A stretch of DNA of 64,000 bases from Marinifilum flexuosum (GTDB lineage: Bacteria; Bacteroidota; Bacteroidia; Bacteroidales; Marinifilaceae): assembly GCF_003610555.1 (NCBI RefSeq), contig NZ_RAPQ01000014.1, forward strand, positions 1-64,000, written 5' to 3'. The translations under genes were made by a program, and so were the position numbers. The notes under the pieces are model-generated. The model ran no database searches, had not been told where the DNA came from, and was given only the letters and a program-made list of their open reading frames with translations. Position 1 is the first letter of the stretch; each line of letters opens with the position of its first letter. Below, in pieces: positions 19,853 to 43,121 of the stretch.

Positions 19853-21658
19853 TTATGCCTCACTCGCAATTATTAATTCGTAATTCGTGATTGATTTATG
19901 CACTTCATATAATGCAGAGCTTGCAAATACCAATGGATACATATCCTCGAAGTACCAAAGTGAGGCAAAATACAATCCTATAGGAGTAGCTTTGATGTCA
20001 TTCAAATCATTAGGAAGGTGAAGATGTAACCACTTCAATCCATTATTTATTTCTTCCTGATTTTGAATTGAGGCCAACGCTCGTATTGCCAAGGAAGTTT
20101 CTTCAATGGTAGAGATTAGACTCGCATTTCCTCCCCATCCTCCATCTTCATTTTGAACAGATTGCAGAAAGGCAATAGCTTTGTTTTTAACTTCACGTAA
20201 TCCTTTTAAAACATCTGGATTTAAACCACTTATAGAATACAGCACTATTGAAGTTCCATATACAGGATTTTCATGCTGCAAATCGTCCTCATTTCCAAAC
20301 CATAGTGGTAACCATGAGCCATTATCGAATTGTGAATTCTGCAAATACCTCCATGCCTTCTGAATACATTTATCCACTTTGCTTCTGGTCTGAGCATCCA
20401 ATTTATCTCGCCAAAGAGATAATGCTTTTATGGCATGTGCTGCAATATCAGGACAGGAGCAGTCGAAAGGCAATTTCCCCCAACCTTTACAAAAGGTAGG
20501 CAAGCCTCCATCATTATTCTGAAGTTCAATTAACCAGTTCACACCATTCTTTATTGCCTCAATGGGAATATCCTGGTATTCGTTCAATTTATGTAATGCA
20601 ATCAATGCTCCCGAAGTATCATCGGCATCCGGCACTCCTCCTTGTAAATGAGTCCATGCCCAACCTCCTGGTTTTGCCTTTGTAAATGGGTGAATATTCT
20701 TTAACTGGTGATCCAGGTAATAAGAAACAAACTTCTCTCTATCAGTAATTTCAGACAAAAAACTATGATCCAATGCATTTACTGATAATGATGTTACCCA
20801 AGTGGCCAAATGTGTGTCAATAGGCCAGGATCCATCCTCACGAATCGAATGCTCCAAAAAGTTTGCTGCCTTTTTACAAACTTCAAGCTCTCTCTCTCCT
20901 GCTCCAATCAAGCTCATTAGTACAAATCCCGTTAAAGGTGCAGCTTCTAAAAAGCCACCATTGCCAGGCTGTTTTTCCGATAGAATTTGTAGAACTTTGG
21001 GTTTTACGGATTGGTTTAGCTTCTTTGTTAACTTATTTGGTTTGCTATGTTGTGCTTTTACCAAGCCAATCGCAATCAATGCCGGAATGGCATAGCTTAC
21101 CACTGATAAGTTCAGAAACTTAAAGAGCTGATCGGGAAATACTGCCATTTGAAATGGAAGTTGTGGAACCAATTTCCATCCATTTTCTCCTAACCTTCCT
21201 GATAGTGCACACATGGAAAGGATAGGTACCGAAAAGGTTTGATCGCTTTGATAATGATTCAATATGGCAGTACTTATAGATTCAGGATCCAATTTCTTCA
21301 ATCGATCTGTCAACCAATTCTCAGCATTTTGAATGCACTCAGCAAACTCAGGACGATCTTTGGCAATCGAAAAACAAGCCCATGTAAGTAAAGTGGTACT
21401 CAAATTACTTTTGCTTCTTATGGTATCTCCCCATCCACCATCCAAATTGACATTTTGAACCAGCCAGAACAGACCTTTGTTGATCTGAAAGGCGTATTTC
21501 TTTTTATCGTATTTCCATAATGCAAAAACTGCTACAGCAGTTGACAGGGCACTACTGGATAATTTTCCATCCCAGTATCCATTTTCATTTCGAAGTGAAA
21601 GGATATGATTGTCCAGTCTTTCTTTTAGGCTTTGTACGTGGTTGTAATTGGAAATCAT
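19853..21658 (-). CDS. Squalene-hopene cyclase-like class II terpene cyclase
   Basis: Protein of 601 residues, near the usual length of squalene-hopene cyclases. It has several QW-type repeats (LDGGWGD, DGSWPI, NGSWLPLWFGN, DGGWGGN) and the catalytic DADDT at residues 344-348, matching the DxDDTA acid motif that protonates the polyene. The region with GSWLPLWFGN and VYGTS also follows the cyclase pattern. It would cyclise a polyprenyl substrate at the membrane; the substrate is unknown. Its neighbours are a smaller repeat protein and a DUF116-polyprenyl synthase fusion, so a dedicated terpenoid product is likely. The C-terminus (ITNYELIIASEA) is encoded by an AT-rich repeat. Start ATG at 21658 is preferred to a TTG at 21670. 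Confidence 0.85.
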   Translation of the reverse strand: MISNYNHVQSLKERLDNHILSLRNENGYWDGKLSSSALSTAVAVFALWKYDKKKYAFQINKGLFWLVQNVNLDGGWGDTIRSKSNLSTTLLTWACFSIAKDRPEFAECIQNAENWLTDRLKKLDPESISTAILNHYQSDQTFSVPILSMCALSGRLGENGWKLVPQLPFQMAVFPDQLFKFLNLSVVSYAIPALIAIGLVKAQHSKPNKLTKKLNQSVKPKVLQILSEKQPGNGGFLEAAPLTGFVLMSLIGAGERELEVCKKAANFLEHSIREDGSWPIDTHLATWVTSLSVNALDHSFLSEITDREKFVSYYLDHQLKNIHPFTKAKPGGWAWTHLQGGVPDADDTSGALIALHKLNEYQDIPIEAIKNGVNWLIELQNNDGGLPTFCKGWGKLPFDCSCPDIAAHAIKALSLWRDKLDAQTRSKVDKCIQKAWRYLQNSQFDNGSWLPLWFGNEDDLQHENPVYGTSIVLYSISGLNPDVLKGLREVKNKAIAFLQSVQNEDGGWGGNASLISTIEETSLAIRALASIQNQEEINNGLKWLHLHLPNDLNDIKATPIGLYFASLWYFEDMYPLVFASSALYEVHKSITNYELIIASEA

Positions 21659-21712
21659 GATATGGTTCAATTTAGCAATTGGTTATCTCTTGCATTAAGG
21701 GTGCAGTCCTAA

Positions 21713-22687
21713 TTAAGACAGAACACCCAAACCTAGAAGAGCATAATAGGTATATTCCACATCACAGGACATATCAGCAATGCTACCGAAAAAGCCACCC
21801 GACTCATCCCAATGAAGGTTGATGAAATTTAAGGAATTTTCGGCAAACGAGTCCATATTTTCTCCAGACAATTTCAAGGCCAATAATGCAGTTGCTGTTG
21901 ATAAAAGATCTGAAACAGGTACATCTTTAGCTGCGATGAATCCCCCTCTCTTCGATCTCATTTGAAGTAACCAATCTTTACTTTTTCCACGATCCAAATT
22001 CATAATCATACCAGCTGCAGTAGCTGAAGTTACCCCATCTGAACTGTTACTTTCATTCGCATAAGAACCATTATCCAATATTAATGACTGATTTGCATCT
22101 TGAATTTCTTCAATTGAATCCGCTTCTATTTGCAAATCTTGATATAAAGTCCACATTAAATAATTGGCATAAACGGTAGAGTGTTCTGAGTCTTTTGCAT
22201 TGTGATTGTAACCTTCATCCTTAGAGATATAACTTTCTATTTCCCATAGAACTTCCGAGCAATCATTCATTGTTTTTTTTGCCAGTTTTCCTATAATAAG
22301 ATCTTTAGCAAATCCTATTCTTAAATATTTGGTGGACTTAAAACCTGTTTTTTGCTTTAAATCTATAAGATGCAGCAAATAGAAAGCCCTTACCAAACAT
22401 ACTGAATGTACAAAATCAAGATTTTTCTGTTCAAATTGTTGCAGGTATTTTTTCTCATCAGCTATATTCAATTTCAAATCCAAAATTAAGGCAAGTGTAT
22501 ATCCAAAAACCGAGTAGTACAAATCTGATTTGCCAGCCTTATCGATAAATCCTCCTGAATCACATTTTTGGGAACGCAAAAACGAAATAATATGATTTTT
22601 AGCATCTTCACTTAAAGCCTCTTTTGCACTTAGCAAGCTTTCCAGTATGAATTGGTTACAATTGATTGATTTTTTAGACAATGTCAT
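21713..22687 (-). CDS. Prenyltransferase/terpene-cyclase repeat protein, short
   Basis: Protein of 324 residues built of alpha/alpha-barrel repeats like those of terpene cyclases and of protein prenyltransferase beta subunits (CDSGGFIDK near 42, RSKRGGFIA near 245, ESGGFFGS near 292). It ends DVEYTYYALLGLGVLS, a typical family ending. It has no DxDD motif that I can see, so it is not an obvious class II cyclase; it could be a second domain-like partner of the 601-residue cyclase or a prenyltransferase-type protein. Its start follows the stop of the polyprenyl synthase gene by 2 nt, so it is in the same operon. Confidence 0.75.
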   Translation of the reverse strand: MTLSKKSINCNQFILESLLSAKEALSEDAKNHIISFLRSQKCDSGGFIDKAGKSDLYYSVFGYTLALILDLKLNIADEKKYLQQFEQKNLDFVHSVCLVRAFYLLHLIDLKQKTGFKSTKYLRIGFAKDLIIGKLAKKTMNDCSEVLWEIESYISKDEGYNHNAKDSEHSTVYANYLMWTLYQDLQIEADSIEEIQDANQSLILDNGSYANESNSSDGVTSATAAGMIMNLDRGKSKDWLLQMRSKRGGFIAAKDVPVSDLLSTATALLALKLSGENMDSFAENSLNFINLHWDESGGFFGSIADMSCDVEYTYYALLGLGVLS

Positions 22688-22689
22688 AT

Positions 22690-24270
22690 TTATTCAGGTA
22701 CGATCCTATTCAATAGGCGTGTTAATAATATCTTTAAGTTTGAATTGGACAGCCTACAAAGACTTTTCATAGCTTTTTGCTTGTATTCACTTAGCATTTC
22801 TTCTGCTTCTTGCATTGCCTCTTTGGTTTCATCCCATTTCAAAATGTCTGAGTCCTGATTTCGCCTCCACTCCTTGATCTTTTCAGGATATTTTTCATTC
22901 AGAATACATGAAATCATCGACGGTTGAACTGTATTAAATCCACTGGCAATTTCATTCTGTCTGAAATCATCCAAATCATCATTAATCTGATAAGCAATGC
23001 CGAGTGCTATGCTATATTCCGAAATCACCTCGGTAACATCGGCACCCGCATTTGCCTGGATGGCACCAAATTGCAATGCAACTTCAAAAGCTGGTGAAGT
23101 TTTATTACTAAAGATTCGAATGATTTCTTCTCTGCTAAGCAATTTCCCATTCGATCTCCAAAGCAACTCTTCACCTTGCCCCAATGACAAATCGCGATGA
23201 GCACAAGAAGCTACCTTTAGTAAACTTTTAATATGCTTTGCCCCTGATTCAGCAATCATTTGGTAACCATATCCTACGATTAAATCTCCAACATTTAAGG
23301 CTACCGGAACATCAAATTCCTTGTGTAAGCTCGGTTTACCATATCTTTTATCATCATCATCGGCAATGTCATCGTGCACCAGTGATGCTTTATGAAAGCA
23401 CTCTATCGAAACTGCTAATTTTTGGATTGTTTCATTATACTCTCCTGATTTTCCCATCAAAGCATCATAAACTGCAGTCATCATTAAAGGACGCCAGCGT
23501 TTTCCATCCTTTTCAATCCAATTGATGGCAATATCAACCGTGTCATCCTGGTAATCGAAAAACTCCTGCAAATTCTCCCTGTTAAACCATGATTTTACAG
23601 ATTTTTTTAGCTGATCCAAATCGATCCAGCCATGCCAATTGCTTTCCTTTCGATTGGCAAGAACCTCATTCAACCAAACATCATCAACTTTGGAATCTTT
23701 ACAATCGTTATTGTACAATGGAATCGCAATGGATGGAACAGCTTCTCTTACAGCCAAAGGAAAAGATCTTTCGAAAGAGTGCAAACAACCAACGCCAATT
23801 ACACATTCCACCTGACCAGATGAAAGTAACACACTTGCCGATGTTGTTCCCTCGCTTACAATGGTGTGATAGCCCAAATCATCGGCTTTAGAAATAATAT
23901 CGGCCAAATCGCATCGACCACATTGTTCGCATAATAAACCCAATTCATCGAACTTTGCAGGACAATCGGCATGACTAAAGCACTTGGGGAGTAGTAATAT
24001 TCGGCGATTGAAAGGAATGCCAGCCACGATATTTTGCCATGCAAAATTATTAATCATTACAGCCAGTAGTTTCTGATAAAGAAACAATTCAGGATGCATT
24101 TTGATTAGTTCTCCTGAATGAAAAATCACCTCCGATTCCTGCAAAGGCGGTATGATTTCCGTTTCAGCAGCATAATCACGAATCAAATCCCTGATTTGCT
24201 TTAGCTTCTCAGGAGTTTGTGGTAGTGCATTACCCAAGTTTGTATTTATTTGATCTTTCCTTAATATCAT
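22690..24270 (-). CDS. DUF116-polyprenyl synthase fusion
   Basis: Two-domain protein of 526 residues. Residues 40-200 form a DUF116-like domain with Cys at 97, 103, 114, 117 and 120 (pattern PKCFSHADC, then LLCEQCGRC), likely metal- or FeS-binding. Residues 235-520 form a trans-isoprenyl diphosphate synthase: GKRWRP at 256-261, first Asp-rich motif HDDIADDDD at 299-307, second DDLDD at 431-435. Both motifs are complete, so it should condense IPP onto an allylic diphosphate; chain length is unknown. Fusion to DUF116 is unusual. The following genes are terpene-cyclase-like, which suggests it supplies their substrate. An AT-rich repeat and a palindrome lie upstream. Confidence 0.85.
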   Translation of the reverse strand: MILRKDQINTNLGNALPQTPEKLKQIRDLIRDYAAETEIIPPLQESEVIFHSGELIKMHPELFLYQKLLAVMINNFAWQNIVAGIPFNRRILLLPKCFSHADCPAKFDELGLLCEQCGRCDLADIISKADDLGYHTIVSEGTTSASVLLSSGQVECVIGVGCLHSFERSFPLAVREAVPSIAIPLYNNDCKDSKVDDVWLNEVLANRKESNWHGWIDLDQLKKSVKSWFNRENLQEFFDYQDDTVDIAINWIEKDGKRWRPLMMTAVYDALMGKSGEYNETIQKLAVSIECFHKASLVHDDIADDDDKRYGKPSLHKEFDVPVALNVGDLIVGYGYQMIAESGAKHIKSLLKVASCAHRDLSLGQGEELLWRSNGKLLSREEIIRIFSNKTSPAFEVALQFGAIQANAGADVTEVISEYSIALGIAYQINDDLDDFRQNEIASGFNTVQPSMISCILNEKYPEKIKEWRRNQDSDILKWDETKEAMQEAEEMLSEYKQKAMKSLCRLSNSNLKILLTRLLNRIVPE

Positions 24271-24303
24271 TGCACATTATCTTAATCTTCTTTTTTTTCC
24301 TCG

Positions 24304-24360
24304 TACAGACGCACGGCTGTGCGTCTCTACACTATATCAAAATCAGCCGTGCGTCTCTAC
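24304..24360. repeat. GACGCACGGC palindrome with extra half copy
   Basis: An inverted repeat with arms GTACAGACGCAC and GTGCGTCTCTAC (24304-24330) is followed by a half copy AGCCGTGCGTCTCTAC (24345-24360). It fills most of the 91-nt gap between the radical SAM and DUF116-synthase genes. The form is that of a dispersed REP-like element. Confidence 0.6.
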
Positions 24361-24361
24361 T

Positions 24362-25555
24362 TTACCCATATGCACCAAATCCAAAGAATGAATATTTCTT
24401 TGCAAATCGGTACACCCACGATTTTTCGGGAATTTCTTTTCCAGGGATATGATGACCAGCACATGGTCTCATTTTTTGTAATTCTTCGAATGCCTTACTT
24501 CTTTTCGATGAATCGTATGCATCAGCCTCTTTCAGCATGGTATGTAATTGCTCTGGAGCATCCAACAAAATGCATCCTTGTGTACAATCAGTTATCCCAT
24601 TTCTTAAACCTGAAATGTATTTTGAATTTTCAATTAATTCAGGAATATTGGAATCCACCTCAATTTTTTCACCTGCAAATTGTATTGGCGGACAAAATTC
24701 AATATCTCCGTAAGGATTAATATGATGCGATAAACCTATTGCACCCGGACAAAGCGCATTTCCTTTCTCATCCCAATAGGTATCGATAATCATTAATGGT
24801 GCTTTTACACGAATGTCAACCATAAATTGTCTCAGCTCCAGAATTTCTTTTTCCGACAAAGCTAATTCAGTGGTTGGACGCTCTCCCACTGGACGATAAA
24901 TATAATACCATAAATAATGAACGCCCTTTTTAATGCAAGAGTTCACAAATTCTTCGCTCACCAAATCTTTAAAATTCGATTTACAAACACTTGTAGCAAC
25001 ACCTGTAAATAGTTTGTTATTAATGGCAGAGTCTATTCCCGTCATGGTTCGACCATAAACATTGTTCGCTCCCCTTCTGATGTCACTTACATCCTGTAAG
25101 CCTTCCACACTAATTAAAGGAGATACATTCCCCAACTTTCTCAAGCGTTGAGCCACTTCGTCAGTCAGCAAAGTTCCATTGGTAAACATTTGAAAGTAAC
25201 AATCGGAATGGCGTTCTATTACATCAAACAATTGAGGGTACATCAATGGTTCTCCACCTAAAAGACCAAAAAAGTATGATCCTTTTTTCTTACTGGAATT
25301 GATGATATTTTCCAGTGTTTCCACATCCATTCCCTTGGAAGTATTATTAATGGTTACCCAACAGCCCTGGCAATTCAAGTTACAGTTATCCGTGACGGAA
25401 ATCATCATGAAAGCCGGATACAATTCTCCATTCTTTAAACGCTTTTTGTGCTTTGCAACTGCTTTCATGCCTTTAAAGCCAAGGTTATAGCCTAATTTCC
25501 AAAGCAACTTTAAATCAACAGTACGTAATATTCTTGATCCTAATGAAAATATCAT
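24362..25555 (-). CDS. Radical SAM protein with SPASM-like C-terminus
   Basis: Protein of 397 residues. The 4Fe-4S motif for S-adenosylmethionine is CNLNCQGC, with Cys at 58, 62 and 65 (CxxxCxxC). GGEP follows at 100-103. Further Cys at 269, 288, 324, 328 and 365 suggest one or more auxiliary clusters, as in SPASM/twitch enzymes. It should do a radical reaction in the cytoplasm; the substrate is not known. Its place directly upstream of the DUF116-synthase gene suggests it acts on the same compound or on an associated cofactor. It is not clearly HpnH. Confidence 0.85.
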   Translation of the reverse strand: MIFSLGSRILRTVDLKLLWKLGYNLGFKGMKAVAKHKKRLKNGELYPAFMMISVTDNCNLNCQGCWVTINNTSKGMDVETLENIINSSKKKGSYFFGLLGGEPLMYPQLFDVIERHSDCYFQMFTNGTLLTDEVAQRLRKLGNVSPLISVEGLQDVSDIRRGANNVYGRTMTGIDSAINNKLFTGVATSVCKSNFKDLVSEEFVNSCIKKGVHYLWYYIYRPVGERPTTELALSEKEILELRQFMVDIRVKAPLMIIDTYWDEKGNALCPGAIGLSHHINPYGDIEFCPPIQFAGEKIEVDSNIPELIENSKYISGLRNGITDCTQGCILLDAPEQLHTMLKEADAYDSSKRSKAFEELQKMRPCAGHHIPGKEIPEKSWVYRFAKKYSFFGFGAYG

Positions 25556-25570
25556 TCTTTTGTTTTTTTA

Positions 25571-25658: not shown

Positions 25659-26525
25659 TTAACAACAACATGAATTGGAATTGGCATCACCATCTTTACA
25701 ATCACAATCGCAACTTGCTTCCGGTTCCTCTTTGCAATTGCAGTCGCAAGCACATTTCTCTTCTTTTTTCTCTTCTACTTTATCCGCTCCACTGCAACAA
25801 GCTCGACGCTCTTCCTCTGCCATTTGTAATTGATCTTTCTTCAATAATGACACCTGGAAATTCTTTCTTCTTGCACTCAGTACCGAATAAACATCATCAT
25901 TCTGAATTTGTTCGAGTATATCCGTTTTTTTATTTTCAGAACCATCTCCATCTCCTCCATCAATCGGACTTTCGGCATATTTAGGAAAAATGATTGCATT
26001 TTGTGAACAAACCCTGGCACAGGCAGGACACATGTCTTTGCAATTTGCCGAAGCTGATACTACAACTGTTCCATCATCTTCAACCGAGTAAACGCTAAAC
26101 AAACAGAAGTTCAAACACTTTCTACAGCCGTTGCAACGTTCATAATCGATTACCGGATACCAAGGTTTCCACTCATCAGAATATTTAATCTTTAGTGGTT
26201 CACCTGTTCCCGATTCCAAACTTGAAATCAATTCCTCCTTTTCATCATCAATATGAAGATATTCGGTTGCCAGTTCTTCATTCCTGCGACCCGTATTATC
26301 TACCAAGTGTTGCATGGCACGAGCCTGACAGCCAAAAACAAGAGCATCCTTGGCTGTGTACAGACTTTCCAAATCATCCGGGTTCTTAAGAATTGTACCA
26401 CACATATCTTCAATATAAGTGAAGCCAATATTCTTCTCTTCCAGAGTCTCTATCAATTTTTGAACAGACCCTTTTTCGATTTTTCCATCTTTCTCACAAC
26501 CACATATAAATATTTGCTTACTCAT
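25659..26525 (-). CDS. Ferredoxin-domain protein with Cys-rich tail
   Basis: Protein of 288 residues. The N-terminal 105 residues start IFICGCEKDG and carry scattered Cys (8, 10, 42, 66). Two 4Fe-4S clusters are predicted from Cys at 131, 134, 137, 141 and at 162, 166, 169, 173. The last 46 residues hold twelve Cys (C243, C244, C258 to C264 alternating, C272 to C276 alternating, then CCC at the end) in an acidic, Lys-rich context. This tail looks like a metal-binding or cluster-carrying region and is unusual for a ferredoxin. No signal peptide, so cytoplasmic. Likely electron carrier for the neighbouring radical SAM or flavin enzymes; that is inference. Confidence 0.75.
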   Translation of the reverse strand: MSKQIFICGCEKDGKIEKGSVQKLIETLEEKNIGFTYIEDMCGTILKNPDDLESLYTAKDALVFGCQARAMQHLVDNTGRRNEELATEYLHIDDEKEELISSLESGTGEPLKIKYSDEWKPWYPVIDYERCNGCRKCLNFCLFSVYSVEDDGTVVVSASANCKDMCPACARVCSQNAIIFPKYAESPIDGGDGDGSENKKTDILEQIQNDDVYSVLSARRKNFQVSLLKKDQLQMAEEERRACCSGADKVEEKKEEKCACDCNCKEEPEASCDCDCKDGDANSNSCCC

Positions 26526-26589: not shown

Positions 26590-26640
26590 ATTCTTAACAA
26601 TTAATAATTACTCATTGTTAATTATTAATTGCCTTAATAT
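26590..26640. repeat. AT-rich TTAATTATTAAT repeat at gene end
   Basis: An AT-rich stretch (ACTCATTGTTAATTATTAATTGCC-like) covers the last codons and the stop of the propeller lipoprotein gene (stop at 26618). Very similar stretches cover the 3' ends of the genes ending at 19853, 30066 and 36113. Dispersed repeat that supplies stop codons. Confidence 0.5.
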
Positions 26641-27841
26641 CATATGCCATTAATGCATCGCCATGACGGATATACAATATCCCATTATTGATAACAGGTT
26701 GAGCAAAGTGCTCTTTAGTTCCTTTGGTAATTTTAAATTGACTTACCAATTCCATTTTTTCCGGACTTACTTCTACCAATCCAACTTGTCCTCTCTCGTT
26801 ATAACAATACAGCATACCATCGGCAGCAATACTCGAGCCTCTACCAAATTTCAAAGTATCTCTGGTTTTACCAGTTTCTGCATCAACACTCTTCCAAGAT
26901 TTCTTGCGATGTGCCGAAGCAATGATTTTACCATTAAGCTTCACAACACCACCCATGATGTTATCCAATTCTTCATTTCTCCACACCTCAGTAATCTTAG
27001 TACCCTCGTCTTCCAGTTTCAATTTCACAGTACCATTTCCACATCCGGTAACGTAATACAAATATCCATCTTCATAAATCGGTGTATTTCCATTTACATC
27101 ACCTTTGGTAGTATCCTGCTGGTGAGTCCATAAGGTTTTACCTGTTTGCGATTCCACGGCTAACAAAGCATGTTCCGAGAAGGTTACCAATACATTTCTT
27201 GTTGGATATTCAATCAATAAAGGAGAACAATATGCAGGCATTTCACCAACACCCGAATTGATCCATTTGGTTTCTCCTGTAAATCGATCCAGTGCAATAA
27301 TGTTTTTTTCTTTCCCTCCTGGAGCAGCAAAAACCAAATCGCCATCTACCAAAAGAGACTGAGAATATCCAAAACGTGTATTTTTACCTTCAAATTTTTC
27401 CAACATATTGATTTTCCACTTCAATTTACCTGTTTCAGCATGGATACAAGCAACATCTCCCAAACCAGAAGCTACGTAAACCAAACTATCAACAACAGTT
27501 GGAGCAGAACGAGATCCGATAAAATTCTTCATCCAATCTTTACCAAATTCTGTTTTCCAAAGCATCTTCCCTTCCAAATCCATTGCAATTAAATAAGCAA
27601 TGCTATCCACCTCTCCATTCAAATAAATGTTATTATCAGTAACAACAGGCGATCCATAACCATTTCCAACACCTTCTGCATCCCAAAGAAGCTTTGGACC
27701 ATCCTTCGGCCACTCTTTTAAAAGATTCGTTTCCGCATAAATTCCCGAGCGGTTTTCACCTCTCCATTCGCTTACTTTTTTCTGTTTCGATGTACATGAA
27801 AACAGCGACAATGCCATTAAGATTAAGACGTAGTTCTTCAT
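26618..27841 (-). CDS. PQQ-like beta-propeller lipoprotein
   Basis: Protein of 407 residues with a lipoprotein signal (MKNYVLILMALSLFSC, lipobox LFSC). The mature part is a seven- or eight-bladed propeller with PQQ-type repeats (AxTGKLxW-like turns) and opens with WRGENRSGIY and LLKEWPKDGPKLLW. Two more genes in the cluster (40630-41877 and 41910-43121) share this opening. None shows the active-site residues of true PQQ dehydrogenases that I could point to, so a binding or scaffold role is as likely as an enzyme role. The start at 27841 is preferred to a TTG at 27880. It follows the ABC ATPase gene by 10 nt. Confidence 0.85.
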   Translation of the reverse strand: MKNYVLILMALSLFSCTSKQKKVSEWRGENRSGIYAETNLLKEWPKDGPKLLWDAEGVGNGYGSPVVTDNNIYLNGEVDSIAYLIAMDLEGKMLWKTEFGKDWMKNFIGSRSAPTVVDSLVYVASGLGDVACIHAETGKLKWKINMLEKFEGKNTRFGYSQSLLVDGDLVFAAPGGKEKNIIALDRFTGETKWINSGVGEMPAYCSPLLIEYPTRNVLVTFSEHALLAVESQTGKTLWTHQQDTTKGDVNGNTPIYEDGYLYYVTGCGNGTVKLKLEDEGTKITEVWRNEELDNIMGGVVKLNGKIIASAHRKKSWKSVDAETGKTRDTLKFGRGSSIAADGMLYCYNERGQVGLVEVSPEKMELVSQFKITKGTKEHFAQPVINNGILYIRHGDALMAYDIKAINN

Positions 27842-27851
27842 TTGTGTGGGT

Positions 27852-28532
27852 TTAGATTTTAGATAATTTTCCGTTATCAAGTTTGTATATATTCTTCATT
27901 TTTTTTGCCAGATCCATTGAATGGGTAACCACTACAAGTGTTACTTTTTGTTTTTCGTTGATCGATACCAATAAATCTCCAAGTTGATCAGCCGATTGCT
28001 TGTCCAAGGAACCTGTTGGCTCATCGGCCAATAACAATCCTGGTTGATGAATTAAAGCACGCACTACAGCAGTTCTTTGACACTCTCCACCCGACATTTG
28101 TCCAGGCAATTGACTTATTTGACCTGACAAACCAACAAAATCAATCAATTCCTGAGCTCTTTGTTCTGCCTCAACTTTTAACTTCTTATCTTTTTCAGGG
28201 ATCAAGGGCACCAATACATTCTCAATTAAACTCAATTGAGGCAATAGGTGATGCGATTGAAAAATGAATCCTAGATTTCTGTTTCTGAATTGAGCTATTT
28301 TATCTTCTGCCAGCTTCCCAATTTCTCTTTCGCCATGAAAAATTACTCCCGAATTGGCATGATCCAACGAACTAATCAAATTCAACAAAGTACTCTTACC
28401 AGAACCCGATGGTCCAACAATTGCAATCGAATCACCCGATTCTATTTTTAAGGATAAATCGTCAAGAACCATTCTCTTTTCCTTGCCCGAAACCTGATAG
28501 TATTTTGAAATTTGCTTTAACTCTATTTCCAT
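27852..28532 (-). CDS. ABC transporter ATP-binding protein (LolD/MacB-like)
   Basis: ATPase of 226 residues. Walker A is GPSGSGKST near residue 40, signature MSGGECQR near residue 146, Walker B LLLADEPTGSLD near residue 167, and the H-loop lies in VVVTHS. This is the LolD/MacB/FtsE group, which normally works with a FtsX-type permease. No such permease lies in this window; the nearest membrane proteins in the cluster are the NapH-like protein and the anchored propeller. It may use a distant permease. The upstream 300 nt contain a periodic TTCTCC array. Confidence 0.92.
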   Translation of the reverse strand: MEIELKQISKYYQVSGKEKRMVLDDLSLKIESGDSIAIVGPSGSGKSTLLNLISSLDHANSGVIFHGEREIGKLAEDKIAQFRNRNLGFIFQSHHLLPQLSLIENVLVPLIPEKDKKLKVEAEQRAQELIDFVGLSGQISQLPGQMSGGECQRTAVVRALIHQPGLLLADEPTGSLDKQSADQLGDLLVSINEKQKVTLVVVTHSMDLAKKMKNIYKLDNGKLSKI

Positions 28533-28626: not shown

Positions 28627-28845
28627 TTCTCCGCAAATTGTTATTGGTTCATCATTATTTAAAAGCTCTCACCGCCTCCATGGGGTCTTTCTCCATCACA
28701 ATAATCCATTCTCCAGGTAAATGACTCATTTCTCCAGCATTTTTTCACGTTCTCCAAGTCATTTACCCAATTCTCCGGCAAAACAACCCGTTCTCCAGCA
28801 AAAAATCCGTTCTCCACGGGGCTTTCATAAGATTTACCTTTCTCC
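28627..28845. repeat. Periodic TTCTCC array, about 20.5-bp period
   Basis: The word TTCTCC starts at 28627, 28689, 28709, 28730, 28750, 28771, 28791, 28810 and 28840. The intervals 20, 21, 20, 21, 20 and 19 in the central part are strikingly even, and 28627 to 28689 is close to three periods. The sequence between words varies. It fills the 301-nt gap before the ABC ATPase gene and runs into the end of the propeller gene at 28834. A single short open frame across it (28659-28865) looks like chance. Regular spacing of two helical turns suggests protein binding or a decayed tandem array. Confidence 0.65.
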
Positions 28846-31601: not shown

Positions 31602-31689
31602 TATATTTCTTTTTGAAATCCATGAGTTAAAACTCATGGCAATTCATTTTATTTCTGATACCACGAACTAAAGTTGCATGGCTGTTCAT

Positions 31690-34029: not shown

Positions 34030-34031
34030 AG

Positions 34032-36083: not shown

Positions 36084-36122
36084 CCTAATTACTCATTATT
36101 AATTGTTAATTCTTAATTGCTT
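36084..36122. repeat. AT-rich repeat supplying the stop of the NapH-like gene
   Basis: TTACTCATTATTAATTGTTA followed by ATTCTTAATTGC covers the stop codon of the gene ending at 36113. Near-identical AT stretches are at 26590-26640 and 30040-30072 (which gives the stop of the GltD-like gene), and a variant is at the end of the terpene-cyclase-like gene (19853-19890). Confidence 0.5.
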
Positions 36123-37375
36123 TCCACCGGACAATATTTTAAACATCTGGCACAGCTTACACATTCCCCTTTATCTGGCTCATAATCTTCTCGATATTTG
36201 TATCTTGTTAATCCTGCCAAAGACAATCCAAATACCAAACCAATAAAGGCTCCTAGCATCCACGATCCATAATAAAACTGCTTTAATATAGCTGCTGATT
36301 CCAGATATAGTTCCTCCTTGGTTTTACCAGAGGTTCTGAATCCTTCAATCTCCAAGCTTTCCTTCATCGTATTCGAATCGAAATGAAGCAATTCATTGGC
36401 CAAACGTACTTTCGAATTCACCATTGCCAAATTTTCATGGAAATTTGAAACCACCCAGCCTCCAATAATCATTAAGGCAGGAATTATCATTCCCAAAAGG
36501 ATGAAACGTCTCGTTGCAGATCTTTTACCCTCCATTTGTTTGACTTCAACAGGCTTATTGATGGCATCCAATGGACATGAATTCTCGCATAGTTTACACT
36601 GAATACAACTTGCCGGAGTAATGCTTAAATGATTTTTGGAAACTCTGCTCACCAAGTTCAGAATCACACCGTAAGGACATAAAAATCGACAGTAAGGGCG
36701 TGCAATAAAAACACTAATCAGCAGAAATGCAGCACCAATGGCAAACATAAAAAAGGTTGCATTGAACCTGAATATTCCAACAAAAGGATCATATCTACAG
36801 ATAATAAAATCGGTCCCCGTTGCTGCATAAAGAATCGCTAAACCAAGATATATCCATGGAATCAATCCCAAAACTTTCTGTAGCCATTTCTTCAAATTCA
36901 CCGGTCTCAACAGAAAAACATCCTGTACCGCCCCCAAAGGACATACTCCAGCACAAAAGGTTCTTCCGAAAAACAATGTATAAACCAACGGAATAACGAA
37001 AAATGCTAATGCTGAAAGTGGAATATGGTATCCTGGATTGAATAAAGCCAATACAACATTTTGAACCGATCCAACTGAACATACACACCCCTCTCTAAGA
37101 AATCCAAAATATACAATGGAAAATAGTGAAGTAATTACAACACCTGTACGTGAACGTTTCCTATGAATAAACCAGGTAATCAAGCTTAAAGCTGCAATTA
37201 AAAGCAATACGTCCACCAATGCGAATATTCCCGCACGAGGTTCTGGCATGGAAGCTACTGGTTGCGTATAGCCCGATTCAAATTCTGGTCTTGGAAATCG
37301 TTGAGTTTGCGCAAAAGCTGCAAAATCGATGATCAATAGCACAAACAGAGAGAATATCGAAAAGATTTTCTTCAT
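36113..37375 (-). CDS. NapH-like membrane polyferredoxin
   Basis: Membrane protein of 420 residues. After a signal-like first helix come about five more helices, with two Cys motifs inside helices (FCAGVCPLGAVQD and CRFLCPYGV) typical of NapH/CcoG-type proteins, then 4Fe-4S motifs CIQCKLCENSCP near residue 260 and CVSCARCLKYCP at the very end. Such proteins pass electrons between the quinol pool and periplasmic FeS partners. Its gene is 3 nt after the Tat 4Fe-4S gene, so a NapG-NapH-like pair is likely. There is no nitrate reductase here. Confidence 0.88.
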   Translation of the reverse strand: MKKIFSIFSLFVLLIIDFAAFAQTQRFPRPEFESGYTQPVASMPEPRAGIFALVDVLLLIAALSLITWFIHRKRSRTGVVITSLFSIVYFGFLREGCVCSVGSVQNVVLALFNPGYHIPLSALAFFVIPLVYTLFFGRTFCAGVCPLGAVQDVFLLRPVNLKKWLQKVLGLIPWIYLGLAILYAATGTDFIICRYDPFVGIFRFNATFFMFAIGAAFLLISVFIARPYCRFLCPYGVILNLVSRVSKNHLSITPASCIQCKLCENSCPLDAINKPVEVKQMEGKRSATRRFILLGMIIPALMIIGGWVVSNFHENLAMVNSKVRLANELLHFDSNTMKESLEIEGFRTSGKTKEELYLESAAILKQFYYGSWMLGAFIGLVFGLSLAGLTRYKYREDYEPDKGECVSCARCLKYCPVESN

Positions 37376-37378
37376 TTC

Positions 37379-37939
37379 TTAAATCTTTTTATTGGTTTTG
37401 AAGCCGGCAAACTGGTAGGCTTCTTCAAGAGGAACTCGTTTAAATGCATCTGATGGACAATCGCGTGCAATGGCGCATTCGTTGCAATTCACACATAAAT
37501 CGTGACTGACTTGTAATTGTAGTGAACCATTTCCGAAGGCACCACAACCTTTTACACATTTACCACAACCAATGCACAACTCATCAATGATCTCATACTT
37601 AAAATAAGGATCTTCTACATAAGTACGTTTGATGGCTCCTGTTGGACAAAGCATATTTTCTGCACCCGTAGATAGATTCTTTACATTCGGTCGAAAATAT
37701 CCACCACACAAATCACAATAGCCACACATGTCGTAAACATGAATGCATTTTACTGCCGATGGTGTTACAACACAACTTGTTGCACAACGTCCACATTGTG
37801 TACATTTGGTTGGATCAAGTTGCCAAAGGTAATCTCCTTTTACACTTTTGTTCGCCAGAACTCCTGCAACTCCAATAATGCTTGCTCCCGCCGCAAAACG
37901 AAAGCATGTATTTATAAATTCTCTTCTGTCTTTTTTCAT
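37379..37939 (-). CDS. Tat-exported 4Fe-4S ferredoxin protein (NapG-like)
   Basis: Protein of 186 residues with a twin-arginine signal (KKDRREFINTCFRFAAGASI). The mature part has four Cys groups: CTQCGRCATSC, a CGYCDLCGG region with a CP motif further on, CIGCGKCVKGC, and CVNCNECAIARDCP. This resembles NapG, a four-cluster periplasmic ferredoxin. With the Tat signal it should be folded with its clusters before export and then work on the outer face next to the NapH-like protein. It is preceded by the small Tat protein gene (19-nt gap). Confidence 0.9.
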   Translation of the reverse strand: MKKDRREFINTCFRFAAGASIIGVAGVLANKSVKGDYLWQLDPTKCTQCGRCATSCVVTPSAVKCIHVYDMCGYCDLCGGYFRPNVKNLSTGAENMLCPTGAIKRTYVEDPYFKYEIIDELCIGCGKCVKGCGAFGNGSLQLQVSHDLCVNCNECAIARDCPSDAFKRVPLEEAYQFAGFKTNKKI

Positions 37940-37958
37940 GCTTACTAGTAATTAGCAA

Positions 37959-38168
37959 CTAGTTTTTAGAAGCTTGTTGATCTCTTTTGAATTTTAAGCC
38001 TTCTGGTTTTTTACAACTTTTTAACTGCTTACAATCCTGACATGGAGTGGTAAACTCACAAGTCTCTTTCGTTGTATAGTTTCTATAAACAAATACCCCG
38101 CTAATTGCAGCCAATCCCGCGATTATTAATCCTCTCAACCCACTTCTTAAAAAATCTCTTCTTTCCAT
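37959..38168 (-). CDS. Small Tat-signal Cys protein
   Basis: Protein of 69 residues. It begins MERRDFLRSGLRG, a twin-arginine motif followed by a hydrophobic helix (residues 12-28). The short mature part carries four Cys (CEFTTPCQDCKQLKSC), enough for one cluster or metal site. It is probably membrane-held by the uncleaved Tat segment. The ATG at 38168 is preferred to a TTG at 38183. It is packed between the NHL-like and NapG-like genes with gaps of 1 and 19 nt, so it is very likely a real part of the complex. I recognise no family. Confidence 0.7.
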   Translation of the reverse strand: MERRDFLRSGLRGLIIAGLAAISGVFVYRNYTTKETCEFTTPCQDCKQLKSCKKPEGLKFKRDQQASKN

Positions 38169-38169
38169 T

Positions 38170-39132
38170 CTATTTTGCTTCAAAAATTCTGATTAATCTT
38201 TTTACTGGATCCAAAACCAAGATCCTATCTTCTGAATCTACAGCCAAATCAATACCAACCGTTCCTGGTTCAAACAAATCCGGAGCAGCCACTACCGATT
38301 TAAAATCTCCTGAAGGGAGATGTATTTTTACTCTTTCCAATCCTTTTTCAGCGGTCACAAAAGAACCATCAGATAAGATGGCAATATTCGACGGATTGCA
38401 ACATCCACTAAAGCCTTCCACACTCATCGAGGTTCTGTTCCAACTTGATATTTGTTCTCCTTTAAAGTTGTATGCCTCAAAAGCATGTCGGCCCGGATTT
38501 ACCGCCCATAATTCACCTTGTCTACCAATCAGCAAATCAAAATATGGACTAGGAATTACAAAACCTTTTATTCCTTCTGCCCGATTTTCTTCACCAATTT
38601 CCTTTATTTTAATTCCATCAATACTGTAATGATGAATGATTTTCTGACCAGCATCGGCGATAAAAACATTGGTATCCTGAACGGCAATTGAAGTAATGTA
38701 AGTTCGATCTCCTTTTACAACAAAGCTGTTTCTTAAACTCCCATTGGGTTTCCTGATATCGATACGATTACTCATTCCTACCAGAATATTACCATTCTCC
38801 ATTACTGTGATACAAGATGCTGCCTGTCTTAATTTCAAACTGTTAATTTGCTTGCCCTCCGAGTTGAGTACAAGTACATTTTTGTCTGTTCCTACATAAA
38901 TATTATCATCCTGATCTACGGCAATGGTATGAATTTCATCTGCATCAATTTTGATTTGCTTGCTCTCTTTATGACTGATTTTTGATGCATCTACATGGCG
39001 TAAAGAATTCAAATCATACTCATAAACATTCTCCTGGCTCACATTACCTGTTTTAAACAGATCTTTTGCCATGAATGCTATCAATACGATTAGCAAAACA
39101 ACAGACAACCATAAAATCAATTTATTCTTCAT
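38170..39132 (-). CDS. NHL-like six-bladed beta-propeller, membrane-anchored
   Basis: Protein of 320 residues with an N-terminal helix (residues 4-22, no clear cleavage site) and a six-bladed propeller. The blades have the pattern AVDQDDNIYVGTDKN, AVQDTNVFIADAGQK and AVDSEDRILVLDPVKR, as in NHL/SGL-type domains rather than PQQ-type. Function unknown; by position it belongs to the NapG-NapH-like block. The gene runs into the small Tat protein gene with 1 nt between them. Confidence 0.8.
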   Translation of the reverse strand: MKNKLILWLSVVLLIVLIAFMAKDLFKTGNVSQENVYEYDLNSLRHVDASKISHKESKQIKIDADEIHTIAVDQDDNIYVGTDKNVLVLNSEGKQINSLKLRQAASCITVMENGNILVGMSNRIDIRKPNGSLRNSFVVKGDRTYITSIAVQDTNVFIADAGQKIIHHYSIDGIKIKEIGEENRAEGIKGFVIPSPYFDLLIGRQGELWAVNPGRHAFEAYNFKGEQISSWNRTSMSVEGFSGCCNPSNIAILSDGSFVTAEKGLERVKIHLPSGDFKSVVAAPDLFEPGTVGIDLAVDSEDRILVLDPVKRLIRIFEAK

Positions 39133-39143
39133 ATCTGAATTCT

Positions 39144-40571
39144 TTAATAGGCTCTCACATCAATACATACCATATGTTTGTCATCTCTCATTAACAAACG
39201 TCCATCAACAACAACCAAAGGTCCCCAAGCATCGTGTCCATCCATAATTTTGGCTTTATCCAAAAACTGGAAACTCTTTGATGTAGCCTTAGCAATGCTT
39301 ATGGTTCCATCATCTTTAAGGATAAAGAATTTACCATCTGCAACTACATATGGTCCCAAACCAAATCGATGTGCTGAACCACTATCCCAAAGTATCTTTT
39401 GACTATCATTTGGATCAACACAAACAAAACGATTTCTTAAACCACCGGCATCCTTAGGAAGAATACTAAACATGTGTCCATCATATAAAATAGGCGTTTG
39501 CTGTTCTGATGCTATTCCATCTTTAGGCTTGAATTTTTGTAAGGTTTCAACCGAATATTTATTACCTGATTTTTTTACCTGCAACAAAATTCCTCCTGCA
39601 CCATATCCTGCTGTCATGTATACTTTGCCATTGCCAAAAACAATTGGCGAAGGAGCCACAACCGAAGGAGCAAAATCTTTTGTTTTCCATAAGATCTCTC
39701 CCAAGTCATCACCTTCTGCAGAAACACCAACAATACCACCTACTGCGGCATATACCCACATTTTTTTACCATTAAAATTCATTGGCATAACAGATGAATG
39801 AGACATCTTCCATCCATCAGGATTTGGGGTTTCCCAAACTACTTTTCCCGTAGCACAATCCACACCCATTAGTAAAGATGATCCTCCTGGAGCAATAATG
39901 GCAATATTGTCGACGATAATCGGACACTGACCGGTATACCAAAAAGGTATTTCAGACATGTAATCCTTAACCAAATCAATTCCCCATAAGAAATCTCCCG
40001 TATTTGGATCGGTACACATCACGTGACATCGAGGTCCAATCGTAATTAAATACTTATCATTGATAGCTGGAACAGTTCTGGATATACCATGATTTCGTTT
40101 GATACGCACTCGATACCACCTTCTCCACAACTCTTCTCCTGTTTCCAATGAAAAGCATCTTAAAGCATCTGCTTTTTTCACCTCATCGTAATCCAGCACA
40201 TATACCTTTCCATTGTAGACCACAGGAGCAGCATGACCTTCTCCCAGTTCTACCTGCCAATCAATTTTAGGTCTGTTTCCCCATGAATTAATCAATTTTG
40301 TTTGGTCTGCTGAAATATTATCTGAATTGGCTCCGCGAAACTGAACCCATTTACCTTTCAAGTCAGTAGATAACTCTTTAAAGAAATCAAACCCTTCACC
40401 AATCTTAACCTTTCCTCCACTGGATTCACTTTCCTTCGGACGATTGTCCATTCCCGGAATACTTGCATGAATATCTTTAACCGGATTGTATAATAACCAA
40501 TACACAAACAATACTGTTGCCACAACAACAGCCAAGAGAATTAATCCTTTTTCGCTTCTTTTCGACAGCAT
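39144..40571 (-). CDS. PQQ-like beta-propeller protein, membrane-anchored
   Basis: Protein of 475 residues with one N-terminal membrane helix (about residues 9-27). A propeller with PQQ-type blades follows (CFSLETGEELWRRW, CTDPNTGDFLWGIDL, GVDCATGKVVWETP). The opening of the propeller, WVQFRGANSDN, follows the form seen in other members of the cluster. The stretch RVRIKRNHG in a loop is unusual for the group. It is separated from the NHL-like gene by 11 nt. Confidence 0.85.
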   Translation of the reverse strand: MLSKRSEKGLILLAVVVATVLFVYWLLYNPVKDIHASIPGMDNRPKESESSGGKVKIGEGFDFFKELSTDLKGKWVQFRGANSDNISADQTKLINSWGNRPKIDWQVELGEGHAAPVVYNGKVYVLDYDEVKKADALRCFSLETGEELWRRWYRVRIKRNHGISRTVPAINDKYLITIGPRCHVMCTDPNTGDFLWGIDLVKDYMSEIPFWYTGQCPIIVDNIAIIAPGGSSLLMGVDCATGKVVWETPNPDGWKMSHSSVMPMNFNGKKMWVYAAVGGIVGVSAEGDDLGEILWKTKDFAPSVVAPSPIVFGNGKVYMTAGYGAGGILLQVKKSGNKYSVETLQKFKPKDGIASEQQTPILYDGHMFSILPKDAGGLRNRFVCVDPNDSQKILWDSGSAHRFGLGPYVVADGKFFILKDDGTISIAKATSKSFQFLDKAKIMDGHDAWGPLVVVDGRLLMRDDKHMVCIDVRAY

Positions 40572-40586
40572 ATACTTATTCGTAAG

Positions 40587-40620
40587 AAACCTGTCAGGTT
40601 TTTAAAACCCAACAGGTTTA
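40587..40620. repeat. AACCTGTCAGGTT-type palindrome
   Basis: AAACCTGTCAGGTTTTTAAA followed by ACCCAACAGGTTTA forms nested arms AAACCTGT/ACAGGTTT. It lies in the 58-nt gap between two propeller genes. Probably a dispersed repeat that may also attenuate transcription. Confidence 0.5.
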
Positions 40621-40629
40621 ACATTTACA

Positions 40630-41877
40630 TTACTCTTTTATTGAATAGGCCATTAATGCATTTTCATGACGCACATACATCACCCCATCTTTTATTACCA
40701 AATGAGACCAGTGAGGACCTTTTCCATATGGCACTTTAAATTCACTGATGATTTTGAATTCATTAGGATCAGCTTTCACCAAAGCAATATTCCCACCTTT
40801 TTCATCATAGCAATACAACATGCCTTCTGCCGAGATAATAGAGCCCTTGGTTTGCCATTTGGTTTCATACATTTTTTCTCCCGTATTCCAATCCAAACAG
40901 CACCAGTTTCCCATTCTATTATTCACCCAGTTTGCACCATAAATGTATCCATCTAACAATACGGCTCCGCCATGATGCACATCAAGCAAAGAATCCACAT
41001 AGGCCAATTCAACCCCTGATGCATCTTCGTTTAAGTTCAGCATTACCGATTTGTGATCATATCCATTGGTCACATAAATCTTACCATCTTTGTACAAAGG
41101 TGTATTGGTATTGATATTTGCTTTCCATTTTCCGCCAGCGTAAGCTCCGTAGTCAAATTTCCATTCTATTTTTCCATTATCCGGATTTACACCAAACACA
41201 TTCTTTTCAATTACCGTAACAATCTGATTCTTGCCATTTCGATTAATCATTAATGGCGATACATATCCGGGCTTGTCATTCAAACTTTCCGATTTCCAAA
41301 TGGTTTCTCCCGTCATCTTATCCAAAGCAACCATGGTGGTTTCATCTCCACAAGGAGTATAATAAACCATATTTTTATAGAGTAGAATCGATTCGGAAAT
41401 TCCCCAAGTACCAAAAGTTCCACCAAATTTTTCGCTGGCATTTACTTTCCAGTTGATATCTCCACTTAAAGCATTTACACAAGCAACATCTCCCTTTCCA
41501 CTTGAAAGGTATATTCTATCATCTTCAATGGTTGGAGTAGCACGACTATCTATAAATGAAGCATCCCATCCTTTACCATAAGGTGTTTGCCACTTTTTAT
41601 TGCCATCCATATCAAAAGCCAAAAGATAATCTGTAGAATCAATTAAGCCTGTCAGGTAAATTGTATTGTGTGCAATGGCAACCGAAGAATATCCTACAGG
41701 AATACTATCCTTGTGCCATAACATTTTTGGCCCTTCCTCAGGCCATTTTTTCAACAGTCCTGTTTCATTGTATACTCCTGTTCTGTTTGGGCCTCTCCAC
41801 TCTGTAAACACTCTTTCTTGTTTACATTGAGTTAAGGCAAAACAAGCAATAAGACCAAGTCCTAGTAATCGTTTCAT
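40630..41877 (-). CDS. PQQ-like beta-propeller, probable lipoprotein
   Basis: Protein of 415 residues. The N-terminus (MKRLLGLGLIACFALTQC) looks like a lipoprotein signal, although Gln before the Cys is not the usual residue. The propeller opens with WRGPNRTGVY and LLKKWPEEGPKMLWH, as in 26618-27841 and 41910-43121. PQQ-type blade turns follow (NALSGDINWK, DKMTGETIWK, NPDNGKIEWK). The three proteins with this opening are clear paralogues. No enzyme residue could be assigned. Confidence 0.85.
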   Translation of the reverse strand: MKRLLGLGLIACFALTQCKQERVFTEWRGPNRTGVYNETGLLKKWPEEGPKMLWHKDSIPVGYSSVAIAHNTIYLTGLIDSTDYLLAFDMDGNKKWQTPYGKGWDASFIDSRATPTIEDDRIYLSSGKGDVACVNALSGDINWKVNASEKFGGTFGTWGISESILLYKNMVYYTPCGDETTMVALDKMTGETIWKSESLNDKPGYVSPLMINRNGKNQIVTVIEKNVFGVNPDNGKIEWKFDYGAYAGGKWKANINTNTPLYKDGKIYVTNGYDHKSVMLNLNEDASGVELAYVDSLLDVHHGGAVLLDGYIYGANWVNNRMGNWCCLDWNTGEKMYETKWQTKGSIISAEGMLYCYDEKGGNIALVKADPNEFKIISEFKVPYGKGPHWSHLVIKDGVMYVRHENALMAYSIKE

Positions 41878-41909
41878 AGTTTAATTGGTTATATGTAGTG
41901 TTATCGTTT

Positions 41910-43121
41910 TTACTTTGCAATTGAATACACCATTAATGAACTTCCATGGCGCACATACAGTTTCTTGTTGTGAATTACCAAATGCGCCCAATGTTGCTTT
42001 TCACCATAAGGAACACGGAAGGAACTCACCTTATTAAATGATCCATTGCTTACATCAACCAAAGCAACTTCTCCGCTATCTCCGTAACAGTATAACATCC
42101 CGTCAGCATAAATCACATTTCCACGACTCAACATTTTCGCTGAATAAAGAGTCTCTCCGGTTTTCCAATCCAAACAAAACCATTCGCGGTTTACATGACC
42201 TGATCCGTAAATCTTACCATCCAATAAGATCACACCTCCCATTTGGTTGTCCAGTTTCTCATTTCTCCAAAGTTCTTTCACACTTGAACCATCATCTGCC
42301 AATTGCAACATTACACCACCTTTGCCATATCCGCTAAAGCAGTACAGCATTCCATCCTGGTATACTGGCGTATTCGGATGAATCGAATATCTGTTGGGAT
42401 GATCAACGCTCCATAACATTTTACCATTTTTTGTATCAATACCTACAATTGAATTTTGAGTATGTGTAACCAATAAACTTCTGTTATTCAATTGTATTAA
42501 AGCAGGCGAGCAATAAGCTGATTTCTCTCCCTTTGCAGCAGATTTCCAGATTAACTTACCATCATTTTTATTCAATGCAATTACACTAGCCTGACTTCCA
42601 CCAGGTGTACAAAAAAGCTTTTCTCCTTCAACCAACAAGTTTTCAGTTACACCCCAACGAATATTACTTCCTTCATATTCATCTATAATATTCTTCTTCC
42701 AAACAACATCTCCATTTTCTGCATTCATGGCAACAAGCTCTCCAAGTCCGCTTAATACATATAACATTCCATCGTTAACCATAGGAGTAGTTCTTACACC
42801 ATCATAAGAATCCATCCATTCTTTGCCATAAATTTGTTTCCAAACTTGTTTTCCTGAATGATCAAATGCAATCACAAAACCTTCATCTCCTTCTGTTCCT
42901 CCGGTATAAACATACTTTTCAGTAACAGCAGCAGATGCATGACCATCTCCCAGTTGATCGAAATGCCATAGCATATTAGGACCTTCGGCAGGCCATGTCT
43001 TTAAAAGATTAGAGTCTGGATATTTACCGTCTCTGTTTTCTCCGCGCCATTGAGCGTTATTCTGTGCAAAACCAGTAAAACTTGAGATAAGAATTACCAG
43101 GGATAAAAAAATACGTAGCAT
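41910..43121 (-). CDS. Exported PQQ-like beta-propeller, first gene of the cluster
   Basis: Protein of 403 residues with a Sec signal peptide (MLRIFLSLVILISSFTGFAQ). The mature part opens QWRGENRDGKY and LLKTWPAEGPNMLWH, then a propeller with blades such as NAENGDVVWKK, NKNDGKLIWK and DTKNGKMLWS. It is the most upstream gene of the 23-kb minus-strand cluster, behind a 430-nt divergent region. It lies 32 nt before its paralogue at 40630. Confidence 0.87.
   Translation of the reverse strand: MLRIFLSLVILISSFTGFAQNNAQWRGENRDGKYPDSNLLKTWPAEGPNMLWHFDQLGDGHASAAVTEKYVYTGGTEGDEGFVIAFDHSGKQVWKQIYGKEWMDSYDGVRTTPMVNDGMLYVLSGLGELVAMNAENGDVVWKKNIIDEYEGSNIRWGVTENLLVEGEKLFCTPGGSQASVIALNKNDGKLIWKSAAKGEKSAYCSPALIQLNNRSLLVTHTQNSIVGIDTKNGKMLWSVDHPNRYSIHPNTPVYQDGMLYCFSGYGKGGVMLQLADDGSSVKELWRNEKLDNQMGGVILLDGKIYGSGHVNREWFCLDWKTGETLYSAKMLSRGNVIYADGMLYCYGDSGEVALVDVSNGSFNKVSSFRVPYGEKQHWAHLVIHNKKLYVRHGSSLMVYSIAK

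Follow-up and report, generated by a model that had tools for sequence, protein, structure and literature searches.

Positions 19853-43121 of the window, a 64,000-nucleotide stretch of the Marinifilum flexuosum genome (contig NZ_RAPQ01000014.1, here C7; genome 5.17 Mb), hold a block of 18 genes on the minus strand (Table 1). We give a probability of about one in two that this block is a single functional system whose two parts are separable, a pathway that would make a dedicated cyclic terpenoid and an NADH-driven relay that would act on or through that terpenoid. The first part, referred to as the terpenoid core, consists of HdrFd, a radical S-adenosylmethionine (SAM) enzyme, a DUF116-polyprenyl synthase fusion, an alpha/alpha-toroid protein and a cyclase with the motif DADDT. 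The second, the redox module, has an order that is repeated in many Bacteroidales, namely propellers, NHL propeller, NapG, NapH, P4, NuoE-NuoF fusion (NuoEF), GltD-like protein, P5 and an ATP-binding cassette (ABC) ATPase, with some propellers missing or doubled. The block genes also cluster in other families and in a second phylum, with identities of ~25-70%, and the block is therefore more than a chance assembly.

The catalytic motifs of the core are conserved. In the fusion, the polyprenyl synthase half scored 137.7 bits against a PF00348 cut-off of 27, and both of its Asp motifs are intact, D300, D301, D304 and D431, D432, D435 being invariant in 16 sequences. The DUF116 half (92.3 against 25 bits) has seven invariant Cys residues in 16 sequences; a fold search gave no significant match for it, and its likeness to receiver and Rossmann-like folds is weak. 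The named relatives with 86-98% identity to the fusion protein belong to Marinifilum. Two further polyprenyl synthase genes are present in the same genome, hence the fusion looks dedicated. The cyclase combines the DxDD acid motif with the cyclase fold and scored 87.7 bits against the 431 of the hopene-cyclase equivalog TIGR01507. No squalene or phytoene synthase (SQS_PSY family) was matched in the M. flexuosum genome, the control having matched in 7/14; among 18 other core-bearing genomes, 6 have the family and 12 gave no match. As none was found in the genome, the substrate of the cyclase should be a linear polyprenyl. In the radical SAM enzyme, C58/C62/C65 and C269/C288/C328 are conserved across relatives, and the score against the adenosyl-hopene transferase HpnH (TIGR03470) was 43.9 bits, below the cut-off of 225. 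HdrFd has 28 near-invariant residues in 29 sequences. DUF116 matches without a surrounding core were also seen within the order at loci L053 (genome G046), L054 (G052) and L061 (G050), the last being weak (E 6e-4) and interrupted by an internal stop.

In the redox module, the cluster-type cysteines of NapG and NapH are kept in relatives, and the NapH-like protein lies below the NapH/MauN subfamily TIGR02163 (51.2 against 213 bits). The NuoE-NuoF fusion contains both of the expected domains and does not reach the NuoF equivalog cut-off (479 against 559 bits). All six propellers of the pyrroloquinoline quinone (PQQ) type, P1 to P6, scored at most 98.7 bits against the cut-off of 480 for PQQ-dependent dehydrogenases (TIGR03075). 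In the NHL propeller (38170-39132), the vicinal Cys-Cys pair in GCCNP is near-invariant. The 74-residue protein with a twin-arginine translocation (Tat) signal gave no Pfam match and is possibly a small Fe-S carrier; a similar open reading frame (ORF), with a Tat-type N-terminus and the pattern C-x4/5-C-x2-C-x4/5-C, lies just before NapG in 18/29 genomes, three Planctomycetota included. The LolD-like ATPase falls short of the cut-off for the LolD lipoprotein exporter (Table 1). An FtsX/MacB-type permease of ~1090 residues adjoins the ABC ATPase in many relatives, and follows it directly in Labilibaculum-type relatives. A family-4 glycosyltransferase, not found in the window, is present in nine Bacteroidales loci, that of the query included, both with and without the core. 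It adjoins the ABC/P5 genes of redox clusters, as at L126:359-1654.

The two parts are linked in several arrangements. Gene order is identical to that of the window in G020, G030, G015 and G012, and likewise in G009 except that P2 and P6 are missing. The core comes first and is followed by the redox module in G055 (another family, 30-58% identity), in G636 and G687 (other families), in a metagenome-assembled genome (MAG) of a rumen Bacteroidaceae (L037, continued in L084) and in G753 from the Planctomycetota. The redox module comes first in G457 (Phycisphaerae, Planctomycetota), where all genes are on one strand within 17 kb. Both parts lie within ~25 kb on opposite strands in G028, while in G018 one contig has the cyclase next to redox genes, and the other core genes lie at the edge of a second contig. 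A third, shuffled arrangement was seen in G1003 (Planctomycetota), and even where planctomycete clusters are rearranged (G842, G960 and G1003), the ABC and permease genes are adjacent to the core.

The earlier note on this DNA would count a lack of joint conservation of the modules in other genomes against its hypothesis; the modules were found to be conserved together. Among 295 genomes of the order, the fusion (E<=1e-60) was present in 13 and the cyclase (E<=1e-20) in exactly those 13; that the fusion, cyclase and NapH searches covered the same 295 genomes is taken from equal numbers and handles, the negative genomes being listed in part. A NapH-like protein was present in 47/295, that is, in 11/13 genomes with the fusion and 36/282 others (Fisher odds ratio 37.6, p=3.5e-8, with genomes treated as independent, which they are not), and 9 of the 10 fusion-bearing families have it. 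The fusion occurs without NapH in G596 (82% complete) and G598 (97% complete). In the window's family, where 32 genomes were searched for both, NapH was found in 14/15 DUF116-positive genomes and 0/17 others; the one positive that lacks it, G004, is a MAG-like assembly of 80% completeness, and one of the positives, G023, was called a fusion from open-frame length alone. A sample of 395 genomes of the phylum gave the fusion (E<=1e-60) in the M. flexuosum genome only; among its listed genomes it held 6 of the order, and the order sample was used instead. In the Planctomycetota, the fusion was present in 68/294 genomes. The cyclase was found in 14 of 20 neighbourhoods drawn from these 68, and two of the six without it are on contigs of <9 kb. 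Genes of the redox/export module lie near the fusion in G753, G960, G1003 and G842 among the 20 neighbourhoods, a count that leaves out generic ABC matches of 22-26% identity in G1009, G891 and G808.

The trees also join the two parts in one lineage. In G018 and G028, which belong to the window's family, the fusion, cyclase, radical SAM enzyme, NapH, NapG and P3 are closer to those of G636 and G055 than to those of Marinifilum-type genomes, and the clade G018/G028/G055/G636/G458 has 100/100 support in the trees of the fusion, the cyclase and NapH. From this joint grouping of core and redox genes in G018 and G028 it follows that the two parts share one history, whether by inheritance or by exchange.

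A number of observations weigh against one system. NapH is present without the fusion in 36 of the 47 NapH-positive genomes of the order, and in the fetched stretches of G039, G042, G046, G054, G551 and G607 most or all of the redox module is found with no core. Conversely, G598 has the core and no NapH in spite of its completeness, and no NapH is present at the locus for cores L030-L035 and many planctomycete cores. Of the 11 genomes in which the parts co-occur, just 4 (G000, G055, G636 and G687) have them on a single contig. The other 7 (G048, G493, G534, G544, G569, G628 and G697) have them on separate and mostly short contigs; they are truly apart in G697, on contigs of 467 and 747 kb, and in G544, where the core is ~80 kb or more from either contig end. 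Five genomes that form a clade in the fusion tree (G534, G544, G628, G687 and G697) are dispersed in the NapH tree, where they fall between genomes that have the redox module only. A B12-type radical SAM enzyme replaces the SPASM-like one at the locus in G457, G828, G866 and G1003, and the chemistry may therefore differ. Finally, 11/29 genomes, the whole G018/G028/G055/G458/G636 clade among them, showed no small Tat Cys protein upstream of NapG, and no FtsX-type permease was found in the window (tblastn, 1e-6). The B12-type gene beside the fusion in L036 occupies positions 8427-9953.

A second version of the core, which occurs without NapH nearby, belongs with these points. It includes a GcvH-like protein and a CobW/HypB-type GTPase and was found in Planctomycetota/Acidobacteria (L030-L035, G828, G922, G747, G902 and G891). 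It is accompanied by a small protein similar to the initial portion of HdrFd, except in G891, where none was seen, and an IscS-like cysteine desulfurase is near the core in L030, L032-L035 and G922 (in L034 480 bits, cut-off 548). The EGFK lysine of the GcvH-like protein is kept in the 4 aligned sequences out of 6 loci. NapH is absent from the genomes of L030, L031 and L032, gives a weak match in L034 and L035, and is on another contig in L033. The joint cluster, too, has CobW-like genes in its vicinity in G458, G018 and G687. At L031:2142-5003, the genes for the GcvH-like protein, the CobW/HypB-type GTPase and a split HdrFd precede the fusion.

The joint terpenoid-redox role put forward in the earlier note is thus only partly supported. 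The modules are conserved together and adjoin each other in a number of lineages, Planctomycetota among them, but NapH is commoner than the fusion (36/47 without it), one version of the core has no NapH nearby, and a single contig carries both parts in only 4/11 genomes. As the redox module is often found without the core, it has a core-independent job and must act without the lipid in most of the genomes that carry it, and the picture given in that note is too symmetrical. The scattered NapH sequences of the discordant clade imply that its core either became attached to other redox modules or persisted longer than they did; one member, G687, still has core and redox module contiguous. The core is therefore read as a separable add-on that has repeatedly become associated with a redox platform.

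On this basis, the following scheme is proposed. The synthase half of the fusion would make a linear all-trans polyprenyl diphosphate in the cytosol, which would then be cyclised by the class II cyclase with its DADDT motif, probably together with the toroid protein. The radical SAM enzyme would modify the product, with electrons from HdrFd and perhaps from the Cys-rich DUF116 domain, and the predicted outcome of this cytosolic part is a dedicated cyclic terpenoid lipid. The oxidation of NADH would fall to NuoEF and the GltD-like protein, from which electrons would reach NapG and the small Tat Cys protein by way of NapH, with the propellers as putative periplasmic and outer-membrane partners. 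A LolD/FtsX-type transporter may move a lipid-like cargo, and a glycosyltransferase is encoded nearby in a number of relatives. In the M. flexuosum lineage, the relay would act on, or work through, the terpenoid in the envelope. A bolder form of this scheme, which we consider doubtful, makes the cyclised isoprenoid the private redox carrier, or a redox-modified lipid, of a cytochrome-free NADH-to-periplasm chain in Bacteroidota and Planctomycetota, with DUF116 performing an Fe-S-dependent reductive step on polyprenyl diphosphate that replaces a squalene-synthase-like step.

Three other explanations were weighed. It is rather unlikely that the NADH branch instead feeds low-potential electrons inward, from NuoEF and the GltD-like protein to HdrFd, DUF116 and the radical SAM enzyme, with NapH/NapG and the propellers serving some other purpose. 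HdrFd does adjoin the radical SAM gene in every laid-out Bacteroidales core with sufficient contig (L030, L032 and L035 do not show this), and the soluble Fe-S proteins NuoEF and GltD-like are encoded close to the core in L036 of G457. However, genes for NuoEF and the GltD-like protein accompany NapH in core-less genomes, and many cores have no NuoEF nearby. Two independent envelope functions, brought together by shared regulation or by hitch-hiking on an island and with no common substrate, are unlikely as well. That each part occurs alone (36 NapH genomes without the fusion against 11 with it), that the contigs differ in 7/11 co-occurring genomes and that the NapH tree is discordant for one core clade would all be expected under such independence, whereas co-occurrence in 11/13 genomes, linkage in differing orders in two phyla and the joint grouping of both parts in G018/G028 would not. 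A variant structural-lipid pathway for a hopanoid-like stiffener of the membrane, with the role of the redox genes limited to help in periplasmic tailoring, is improbable given that no squalene/phytoene synthase was found in the M. flexuosum genome or in 12/18 others and that the scores for hopene cyclase (88 against 431 bits) and HpnH (44 against 225 bits) are low.

If the two-part system is real, cultured marine Marinifilum and Labilibaculum make a new cyclic isoprenoid without squalene synthase, tied to a cytochrome-free electron path across the inner membrane, and the related gene sets of Planctomycetota do something akin. A function would then be at hand for DUF116, for a large group of BamB-like propellers and for NapGH relatives that have no nitrate reductase.

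Table 1. The 18 genes of the block at 19853-43121, from the highest to the lowest position.
Feature	Position	Strand	Evidence
P1, exported PQQ-type (BamB-like) propeller, WRGxNRxG	41910..43121	-	PF13360 1.2e-26; signal-peptide-like N-terminus by eye
P2, PQQ-type propeller, lipoprotein-like N-terminus	40630..41877	-	PF13360 4.3e-17; N-terminus by eye
P3, PQQ-type propeller, N-terminal membrane anchor	39144..40571	-	PF13360 1.4e-16; Cys139, 186, 216, 469 conserved (27 sequences)
NHL propeller, vicinal Cys244-Cys245 (GCCNP)	38170..39132	-	PF01436 6e-7; 25 sequences
74-residue Tat-signal protein, C-x5-C-x2-C-x5-C	37959..38183	-	ORF and like ORFs in relatives
NapG-like Tat-exported Fe-S protein	37379..37939	-	PF12838/PF00037 over cut-off; cluster-type cysteines conserved
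NapH-like membrane Fe-S protein	36113..37375	-	PF12801 4e-15
P4, propeller with N-terminal transmembrane segments	34032..35930	-	PF13360 3.8e-31; transmembrane segments by eye
NuoE-NuoF fusion with C-terminal 2x[4Fe-4S] domain (NADH-oxidising)	31690..34047	-	PF01257, PF01512, PF10589, PF14697 over cut-off
GltD-like Fe-S flavoprotein, N-terminal [2Fe-2S] domain	30066..31637	-	PF13510, PF14691, Pyr_redox_2 over cut-off
P5, exported ACSF4/BamB-type propeller	28834..29943	-	PF13570 2.3e-78
LolD-like ABC ATPase	27852..28532	-	TIGR02211 233 bits, cut-off 307.75
P6, PQQ-type propeller, lipoprotein-like N-terminus from internal ATG	26618..27880	-	PF13360 2.1e-24; N-terminus by eye
HdrFd, Fe-S protein, N-terminal Cys domain and ferredoxin-like domain	25659..26525	-	Fer4-type matches below cut-offs; residue conservation
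Radical SAM enzyme, C-terminal auxiliary-cluster-like cysteines	24362..25555	-	PF04055 3.3e-17; conserved Cys
DUF116 fused to trans-polyprenyl diphosphate synthase	22690..24270	-	PF01976 2.8e-26, PF00348 5.3e-40; invariants in 16 sequences
Prenyltransferase-type alpha/alpha-toroid (repeat) protein, C-terminal motif DxEYTxY	21713..22687	-	PF00432 2.6e-10; motif conserved
Class II terpene cyclase related to squalene-hopene cyclase, DADDT	19853..21670	-	DxDD motif and cyclase fold

Every gene that had been named from the letters alone was recovered in place by Pfam matches and ORF reading, the 74-residue Tat/Cys ORF included, but two genes, those for HdrFd and the LolD-like ABC ATPase, had been overlooked. 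The statement that many gaps are 1-20 nt holds for 7 of the 17 intergenic spacings, which are <=20 nt with an overlap included, but not for the others, which are 32 to 301 nt by hand count, an internal ATG being used as the start of two genes with TTG starts. Seven terminator-like sites on the minus strand were found at 24000-43600, the part scanned (19853-24000 was outside the scan); every one is intragenic and none lies in a gap. No Rfam family reached its gathering threshold in 19000-44500. A nitroreductase gene at 19146-19808 is directly downstream of the cyclase gene; it was excluded from the block, as it is beside the core in just two loci, those of Marinifilum L017 and L020.

All parts of the block except the small Tat protein match known superfamilies, and the block was compared with the systems in which such parts occur. 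It shares with the squalene-hopene cyclase/hopanoid pathway the class II cyclase fold, the DxDDT acid motif, an aligned His that is kept and a radical SAM gene nearby, but differs in the DUF116-fused polyprenyl synthase, the sub-cut-off scores, the linkage to an electron chain and the lack of any squalene/phytoene synthase found in the genome; ordinary hopanoid synthesis was ruled out by this last point and the low family scores. Compared with drimenyl-PP synthase and ent-CPP synthase, which are class II cyclases acting on prenyl diphosphates, the block has a cyclase of ~600 residues in a cross-phylum cluster with toroid and DUF116 partners.

NosGH and MauMN are NapGH-like ferredoxin pairs, and the block resembles all of these in having a polytopic Fe-S membrane protein and a Tat-exported Fe-S protein. 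It differs from them in the propellers, the 74-residue Tat Cys protein and a NapH below the cut-off. The NapA, NapB, NosZ and cytochrome c families gave no Pfam match among the 18 block proteins, and nitrate or nitrous-oxide reduction was ruled out as no catalytic subunit is present among them; PQQ dehydrogenases were ruled out by scores far under the cut-off. Soluble NAD(P)H modules of NuoE, NuoF and a GltD/NuoG-like Fe-S flavoprotein occur in NADH-linked hydrogenases and formate dehydrogenases. The block has the same three components and pairs them with NapH/NapG, but its Pfam matches include no catalytic subunit of either enzyme type. A defence island was also rejected, since a PADLOC scan of 10 of the 18 block proteins gave just the radical SAM enzyme (viperin-type) and weak Rossmann-type matches.

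No description of the combined system was found in the full-text literature, with subscription journals and bioRxiv outside its coverage, and the portions consulted of PMC12325347 and PMC10390337 hold nothing on it; the block is apparently undescribed. The DUF116-polyprenyl synthetase fusion itself was noted by Makarova et al. 2015 (PMC5898192, the one article found to name it) as Psta_0175 of Pirellula staleyi; there, DUF116 is taken to be a domain that binds metal, probably has a flavodoxin-like fold and is likely to act in electron transfer. That fusion is the same as the one in the block, and the portion of the article covered does not mention the cyclase, the radical SAM enzyme or the redox-propeller linkage. 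The assembly fits none of the kinds with which it was compared (hopanoid pathway, Nap, PQQ dehydrogenases and Lol), and the function proposed for it as a system is a prediction from its parts.

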